A stretch of DNA of 64,000 nt from Armatimonas rosea (GTDB taxonomy: Bacteria; Armatimonadota; Armatimonadia; Armatimonadales; Armatimonadaceae): positions 558,001 through 622,000 of the forward strand of contig NZ_JACHGW010000002.1 in NCBI RefSeq assembly GCF_014202505.1, given 5' to 3'. The translations under genes and the position numbers were made by a program. Numbering within the stretch: the first letter of the stretch is position 1; every line of letters begins with the position of its first letter. Below the pieces are notes generated by a model. It saw only the letters and a list, made by a program, of their open reading frames with translations, had not been told where the DNA came from and made no database searches. This document shows, piece after piece, positions 56,516 to 57,006 of the stretch.

Positions 56516-56546
56516 CCCCCCTAACCCCCGCCCGGCGGGGGGACAA
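56516..56546 (+). repeat. Left inverted repeat of the DUF559 cassette
   Basis: CCCCCC-TAA-CCCCCG-CC-CGGCGGGGGGACAA. It holds the nuclease stop codon (TAG, minus strand, 56521-56523), so the repeat encodes the last residues of the nuclease (PPPGGG). Confidence 0.85.
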
Positions 56547-56919
56547 TGCGGTTTGTGGCTTCTATGATTTTGGCGAGGGTGAGGGGAAGCTGGTGGAGAA
56601 CTTCACTGTTGGTGAGCCGCACGATACGAAATCCACAGCTAGCTAGGTAGTTGTCACGCTCGGTATCTTTCTCCGCTTGTAGCTCGCTGTTGTGGTAGCC
56701 ACCGTCCACCTCAATAATCAGCCGGAACTCGGGGCAGTAAAAATCAAAGATGTAGGTCTCGTAGGCATGCTGGCGACGGAAACGAAGGCCTGCTAGACGC
56801 TTTCCACGTAGCATCTCCCACAGTGTTTCTTCGGCCTCTGTCGGTGTCATTCGGTTCTCCCAGGCCCAGCGCTGGAGCTCTGGGGAAGCGCCACGCCAGT
56901 ATCTTGGTTTTGGTTTCAT
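56521..56919 (-). CDS. DUF559 / Vsr-like PD-(D/E)xK endonuclease-like protein
   Basis: 132 residues from ATG 56919 ([11 protein letters not shown]); the frame to 56964 adds unlikely residues. Typical DUF559: [52 protein letters not shown] and [18 protein letters not shown]. The D...ExD-type acidic residues (FDFY, EVDGG) match the EDxHD/Vsr nuclease core. These proteins are small, common and mostly uncharacterised; relatives are very-short-patch repair endonucleases and homing endonucleases. The C-terminus PPPGGG comes from the flanking repeat. Single gene between the inverted repeats; inference: the nuclease mobilises or maintains the repeat. Confidence 0.8.
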
Positions 56920-56975
56920 CGCCCACATAACGGTTGGGCAGGGGCATTTCTGACAAAATCGCAAAAAATTCCTTT

Positions 56976-57006
56976 TTGTCCCCCCGCCGGGCGGGGGTTA
57001 GGGGGG
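56976..57006 (-). repeat. Right inverted repeat of the DUF559 cassette
   Basis: Exact reverse complement of 56516-56546. Followed 16 bases later by the argG -10 box, so the cassette sits in the argG upstream region. Confidence 0.85.

Follow-up and report, generated by a model that had tools for sequence, protein, structure and literature searches.

The window, which is the whole 64-kb stretch of Armatimonas rosea DNA that was analysed, contains a DUF559 gene enclosed by two copies of a repeat, REP1, in opposite orientation. The left arm (CCCCCCTAACCCCCG-CCCGG-CGGGGGGACAA; 56516-56546, forward strand) is complementary to the right arm (56976-57006, reverse strand) at 31/31 positions, and 429 nt separate the two. 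The arms are thus exact reverse complements, as an earlier note on this DNA had claimed. The note had also called each arm palindrome-bearing, which agrees with the layout found here: an unpaired C tract (CCCCCCTAA) is followed by a 7-bp hairpin, and the arm is not a palindrome over its full length. No other exact inverted repeat of at least 17 bp spans 250-1500 bp in the 64 kb examined.

The open reading frame between the arms lies on the reverse strand and matches PF04480 with an E-value of 1.6e-30 and a score of 105.6 bits, against a gathering cut-off of 20.6. Its stop codon (56521-56523) and last codons are contained in the left arm, as had been noticed before. As listed, the open reading frame starts with a TTG at 56964, but this start is probably wrong. 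An ATG at 56919 is preferred because a promoter-like motif is located at 56925-56958 and because the homologs begin at the ATG, and the gene would then extend over 56521-56919 and encode 132 amino acids. The motif, TTTTGTCAGA-N15-CCGTTATGT, is placed on the reverse strand (G000:C2:614925-614958) and has two mismatches to the consensus described below. The earlier statement that only the nuclease gene lies between the arms therefore remains true for open reading frames, of which there is a single one, but has to be amended for the motif. The neighbouring genes encode a secreted Ig-like protein and ArgG (argG). None of the immediate neighbours is a cytosine methyltransferase gene, and no T run follows the arm hairpins at this locus. 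The sequence that adjoins the right arm on the inside (ACAAAAAGGAATT) agrees with the spacer consensus of the REPIN doublets described below, and the nuclease unit therefore resembles a REPIN that contains a gene.

The AF2 model of the protein has a pLDDT of 83 and matches 3hrl, a DUF559-like protein from Neisseria (Z 14.9), followed by the catalytic domain of the homing endonuclease I-Bth0305I as the second-best match (Z 11.1), and Vsr (1cw0; Z 9.1). The residues D74, E85, D87 and H91, numbered according to the open reading frame as listed, are invariant in 45 relatives. All protein matches were to DUF559 and other PD-(D/E)XK families, and the Y1 HUH domain (PF01797) was not among them. The profile match and the similarity to Vsr both support the Vsr-like PD-(D/E)XK nuclease that had been recognised from the sequence, and the modelled fold makes a nicking or cutting activity likely.

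REP1 copies in the genome and the locus in a congener

To place the arm in the genome, we used pattern searches, as for all genome-wide counts given here, with the reversed sequence as a control. The REP1 core CCCCCTARCCCCCG gave 172 matches in the 6.3-Mb genome and the control gave 22, because of which chance can be ruled out for the arm. The genome-wide search proposed in the earlier note thus revealed a dispersed family. Its consensus is CCCCCTAACCCCCG-cccgg-CGGGGGGAcaa, followed by nnagGaa, and its tag is a C tract (consensus CCCCCTAACCCCCGcccggCGGGGGGAcaa), which is neither GTAG nor CGTC. The 100 perfect core copies include 22 close pairs, of which 20 are convergent and none divergent. 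The convergent pairs are spaced by 54-66 bp, with a mode of 65 bp (ten are spaced by exactly 65 bp), and the doublets fold into long hairpins, with z-scores from -4.4 to -6.6. This arrangement fits REPINs as described by Bertels and Rainey (2011, PMC3116915). In the congener G071, the core is found 153 times, compared to six times in the control.

The window contains one more dispersed REP1 copy, CCCCCCTAGCCCCCGCCCGGCGGGGG, at 29903-29934 on the reverse strand. A diverged, nearly full palindrome with the same type of C tract (GGCCCCCTAACCCCCACTTGTGGGGGTCAGGGGGCC) is located at 6819-6833, and single copies that resemble the flanking repeats of two further DUF559 genes in this genome are located at 36661 and 58384 (REP2-like and REP3-like). 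Elsewhere, a single REP1 copy is placed in frame within a probable sulfatase gene (L014, G000:C1:409646), to which it adds about 12 codons. The letters CAATGC are present on both sides of this copy, but they are no proof of a target duplication, as the element's own end has the same letters.

The ortholog of the window's nuclease gene in G071 is located in the same place by argG. The flanking REPs, for which the earlier note had proposed a comparison with relatives, are the same and have been retained, and the unit is inverted relative to its flanks. The gene has lost about 26 codons in frame, and its open reading frame runs into argG. The simplest reading of the orientation in G071 would be an inversion between the inverted arms, suggesting recombination at the REPs rather than transposition. 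Neither a clean empty site nor a target-site duplication could be resolved for DUF559 units in the comparison of the two congeners. The units of two other DUF559 genes, L003 and L004, are of types whose locations differ between the two genomes, a clean junction being absent, and at the L003 site the congener is without DUF559 and has kept a REP-like remnant. Contig C158 of G071 (L172/L360) carries a RAYT unit, roughly 690 bp long and with its own REPs and the promoter-like motif, where the window has about 22 bp between collinear flanks (5759-5781). This is a presence/absence polymorphism of a RAYT, and no target duplication was found at the RAYT-absent site.

Inverted repeats at DUF559 and RAYT genes

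The genome encodes five DUF559 genes and seven Y1_Tnp (RAYT) genes, and both types of nuclease therefore coexist in it. Perfect inverted repeats of 31, 68 and 58 bp, all different in sequence, bracket three of the five DUF559 genes, and the other two have flanks that are diverged or one-sided: L005 has diverged REP1-like copies on both sides, and L004 has a RAYT-type REP on its upstream side. REP-like flanks are thus present at 5/5 DUF559 genes, in line with the expectation that other members of the family would be flanked in the same manner. All seven RAYT genes are bracketed by inverted repeats, each by a different repeat of its own, and REP1 is found at none of them. The idea that a DUF559 protein takes the place of the transposase is hence supported as regards the pairing with repeats, but not as a replacement, given the seven RAYTs with REPs of their own. 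In 284 kb, comprising the window and eleven 20-kb stretches that were all chosen around DUF559 or RAYT genes, exact inverted repeats of at least 17 bp spanning 250-1500 bp were identified only at DUF559 and RAYT genes, with one exception, a pair that reuses the repeat of an adjoining RAYT.

The association recurs in other genomes. A spanning exact inverted repeat of at least 16 bp was identified at 18 of the 40 DUF559 loci in the phylum and at 0.23% of 12,975 control positions of the same size in the same stretches. In a cross-phylum sample of 72 loci from named genomes of Cyanobacteria, Chloroflexi, Planctomycetes, Armatimonadota and others, found with a profile of a closer protein subset, such a repeat spans 21 loci, compared to 0.13% of the control positions. 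At the remaining loci (22/40 and 51/72) an exact inverted repeat of this length is absent, a threshold that misses imperfect and one-sided REPs. By the same threshold, 8 of the 14 testable RAYT loci in the phylum are bracketed, and the bracketing of DUF559 genes is therefore about as frequent as that of an accepted REP-associated gene. In a count by open reading frame from which duplicates were excluded, 23 of 95 DUF559 frames were bracketed, compared to 2 of 234 isolated short frames (Fisher's test, 8e-12), and the count for all other frames was 12 of 1301. Taken over the five genes of the genome, the 284 kb and the cross-phylum controls, the repeats are thus not distributed at random with respect to DUF559 genes; a random distribution was the outcome that the earlier note had named as speaking against its idea.

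Different DUF559 genes within one genome have unlike arms. The similarity of the repeats rises with that of the nucleases (Mantel rho 0.24, 46 of 5000 permutations, host phylogeny uncorrected), a correlation that is modest and serves as supporting evidence only. Two loci placed in different phyla, L267 and L272, have closely related DUF559 genes and nearly the same repeat, GACCTCACCCCTGCCCCTCTCC, which suggests joint horizontal transfer of the gene and the REP. Furthermore, Y1_Tnp is absent from two of the 19 genomes in the phylum, G061 and G075, both of which contain DUF559 with inverted REPs. G061 is 2.7 Mb in size and 99% complete, and the REP that flanks its single DUF559 gene is present in 24 copies, compared to none in the control. 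Five of the 24 copies, including three of the four perfect ones, are located at this gene.

A promoter-like motif at nuclease and recombination genes

The motif in front of the window's nuclease gene has the consensus TTTTRTCAGA-N15-CCGTTATAG and, at DUF559 and RAYT genes, follows the upstream REP and precedes the start codon. A search of the genome with at most three mismatches identified 21 sites, and the control contained one. Four of these sites precede DUF559 genes, seven RAYT genes and ten other genes. With a recognisable variant at the fifth DUF559 gene (score 40.1), the motif is present at 5/5 DUF559 and 7/7 RAYT genes. Among the products of the ten other genes, Pfam supports RecA, S6-SSB, RadC, a RecQ-like DEAD helicase, a ComM-like Mg-chelatase and two ComEA-like HHH proteins. 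A conserved leader specific to DUF559 was considered and rejected, since the genome search recovered the motif at RAYT and recombination genes. The congener G071 contains 17 sites, and its control none, before genes for RadC, ComEA-like, ComM, RecQ-like, RAYT and DUF559 proteins. Upstream of the DUF559 genes that were checked outside the genus, the motif was not recovered.

By their predicted functions, the genes behind the motif look like a recombination or DNA-uptake regulon that would respond to competence or DNA damage. Consistently, a study in Caulobacter (PMC12907096) reports induction of DUF559 genes, including vsrA, as part of the response to DNA damage. One unannotated protein behind the motif (L099, G000:C3:260211) has no match in Pfam, resembles a sigma factor by eye and could be a regulator. 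In G071, the motif is located directly before a recQ-like gene (G071:C56:11298, L166). In the window's genome, at G000:C1:923683 (L042/L106), what is left of this promoter region is separated from the recQ-like gene by a RAYT unit that has a motif of its own, which looks like a capture or duplication of the motif.

DUF559 as a candidate REP-associated nuclease

The best explanation of the locus is that it represents the parent-like form of the dispersed REPIN family, in which a REP, a spacer of about 20 nt and an inverted REP follow each other. We consider it probable that DUF559 constitutes a second class of REP-associated nuclease, which would work in a RAYT-like manner from within a REP-bounded unit. 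The sequences show the pairing, the repeat family, the promoter-like motif in common, the predicted fold and the inversion of the unit between two congeners; from these we infer that the protein may recognise and nick REPs and in this way spread or maintain them. Several observations speak against this reading: more than half of the DUF559 genes lack an exact bracketing repeat at the threshold used, seven RAYTs that might act in trans are present in this genome, the comparison of congeners resolved neither a target-site duplication nor a clean empty site for a DUF559 unit, and the motif was recovered in the genus only. In such a scheme, DUF559 would be expressed under the recombination and DNA-uptake regulon, recognise, in DNA that is exposed or single-stranded, the REP hairpin together with the C tract that tags it, and nick its cognate REP with an active site of the PD-(D/E)XK type known from Vsr and homing endonucleases. 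The break would be healed by excision and reinsertion, or by recombination or gene conversion with other REPs, and the healing would copy and homogenise the REPINs.

Several features are shared with RAYT/REPIN systems (Nunvar 2010, PMC2817692; Bertels and Rainey 2011, PMC3116915): a small nuclease gene is enclosed by a pair of inverted REPs, this REP is also dispersed in the genome, mostly in doublets of opposite orientation that have a short spacer and fold into hairpins, and several independent pairs of nuclease and REP are present per genome. The promoter-like motif is also the same as that of the resident RAYTs. However, DUF559 is an unrelated PD-(D/E)XK protein without an HUH/Y1 domain, its REP is tagged by a C tract (CCCCCTAA / CCTCACCCC) and not by GTAG or CGTC as in RAYT systems, and the DUF559-REP pair occurs in a genome without Y1_Tnp. 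Both the enzyme and the tag differ, and the DUF559-REP pair is therefore not a member of the RAYT-REPIN systems. Vsr and VsrA, a Caulobacter DUF559 protein linked to DNA-damage expression (PMC12907096), have the same fold, but the gene studied here has no adjoining cytosine methyltransferase gene and is bracketed by its own REPs. The Vsr-like homing endonuclease I-Bth0305I is similar in fold and in that a nuclease serves a mobile element, whereas the DUF559 unit has no intron or intein, is located between genes, is bounded by inverted REPs and is accompanied by many gene-less copies. MITEs and their parent insertion sequences likewise combine a unit that carries a gene with short derivatives that lack it and have the same ends, and the DUF559 unit differs from them in that it has no recognised transposase, has hairpin REPs as its ends and yielded no resolved target-site duplication. 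No sign of a link between DUF559 and REPs was found in the open-access literature on DUF559 and on REPs and REPINs, as represented mostly by titles, abstracts and term counts.

It is fairly unlikely that DUF559 maintains the repeats and does not move them, in which case nicks of a Vsr-like mismatch or hairpin repair would lead to gene conversion among REPs and keep the arms identical, and the spread would occur by other routes. The Vsr-like fold, the motif in common with recA, ssb, recQ and radC, and the perfect identity of the arms would all agree with such a role, as would the inversion of the unit between congeners, which implies recombination at the arms. In Caulobacter, VsrA is induced by the SOS response and was proposed to be a repair nuclease (PMC12907096). 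However, maintenance alone leaves unexplained why each DUF559 gene is located within its own pair of repeats and why the dispersed copies form convergent doublets.

That one of the seven RAYTs, or an extinct one, instead moves REP1 in trans, with DUF559 as a passenger captured between two REP1 copies, is quite unlikely. All seven Y1_Tnp genes are bracketed by inverted repeats, and the RAYT-type REP upstream of the L004 DUF559 gene points in this direction, but each RAYT has a different repeat and none has REP1. Inverted REPs at DUF559 in G061 and G075, which lack Y1_Tnp, also argue against a source in trans, and recurrent bracketing across phyla would not be expected for a passenger. Finally, hairpin arms at the end of a gene and between divergent genes could represent ordinary bidirectional terminators, or have arisen by chance in a repeat-rich genome. 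The terminator reading was rejected, since the hairpins lack a T run and the arms are members of a family that is dispersed through the genome in convergent doublets. Together with matched controls that are about 30-fold lower, and with the absence of such inverted repeats from the 284 kb except at DUF559 and RAYT genes, this makes terminators and chance alike highly improbable.

REPs are among the commonest bacterial repeats. To our knowledge, RAYTs are the only class of enzymes tied to REPs so far, and many genomes rich in REPs lack an obvious mover. On the preferred reading of DUF559 as a REP-associated nuclease, we tentatively advance the possibility that it represents a mechanistically unrelated REP-mobilising class, found in many phyla and responsible for the widespread REPs with C tracts of the CCTCACCCCnnCCCCTCTCC type, and that the regulon shared with RAYTs in the genus may tie the propagation of the repeats to DNA damage or competence. 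If true, the pairing with REPs would assign a role to DUF559, a large family of domains of unknown function, REPs in genomes without RAYTs would be explained, and an enzyme would be available for experiments. The promoter-like motif in common with recA, ssb, radC, recQ, comM and comEA-like genes would also make the timing of REP movement testable.
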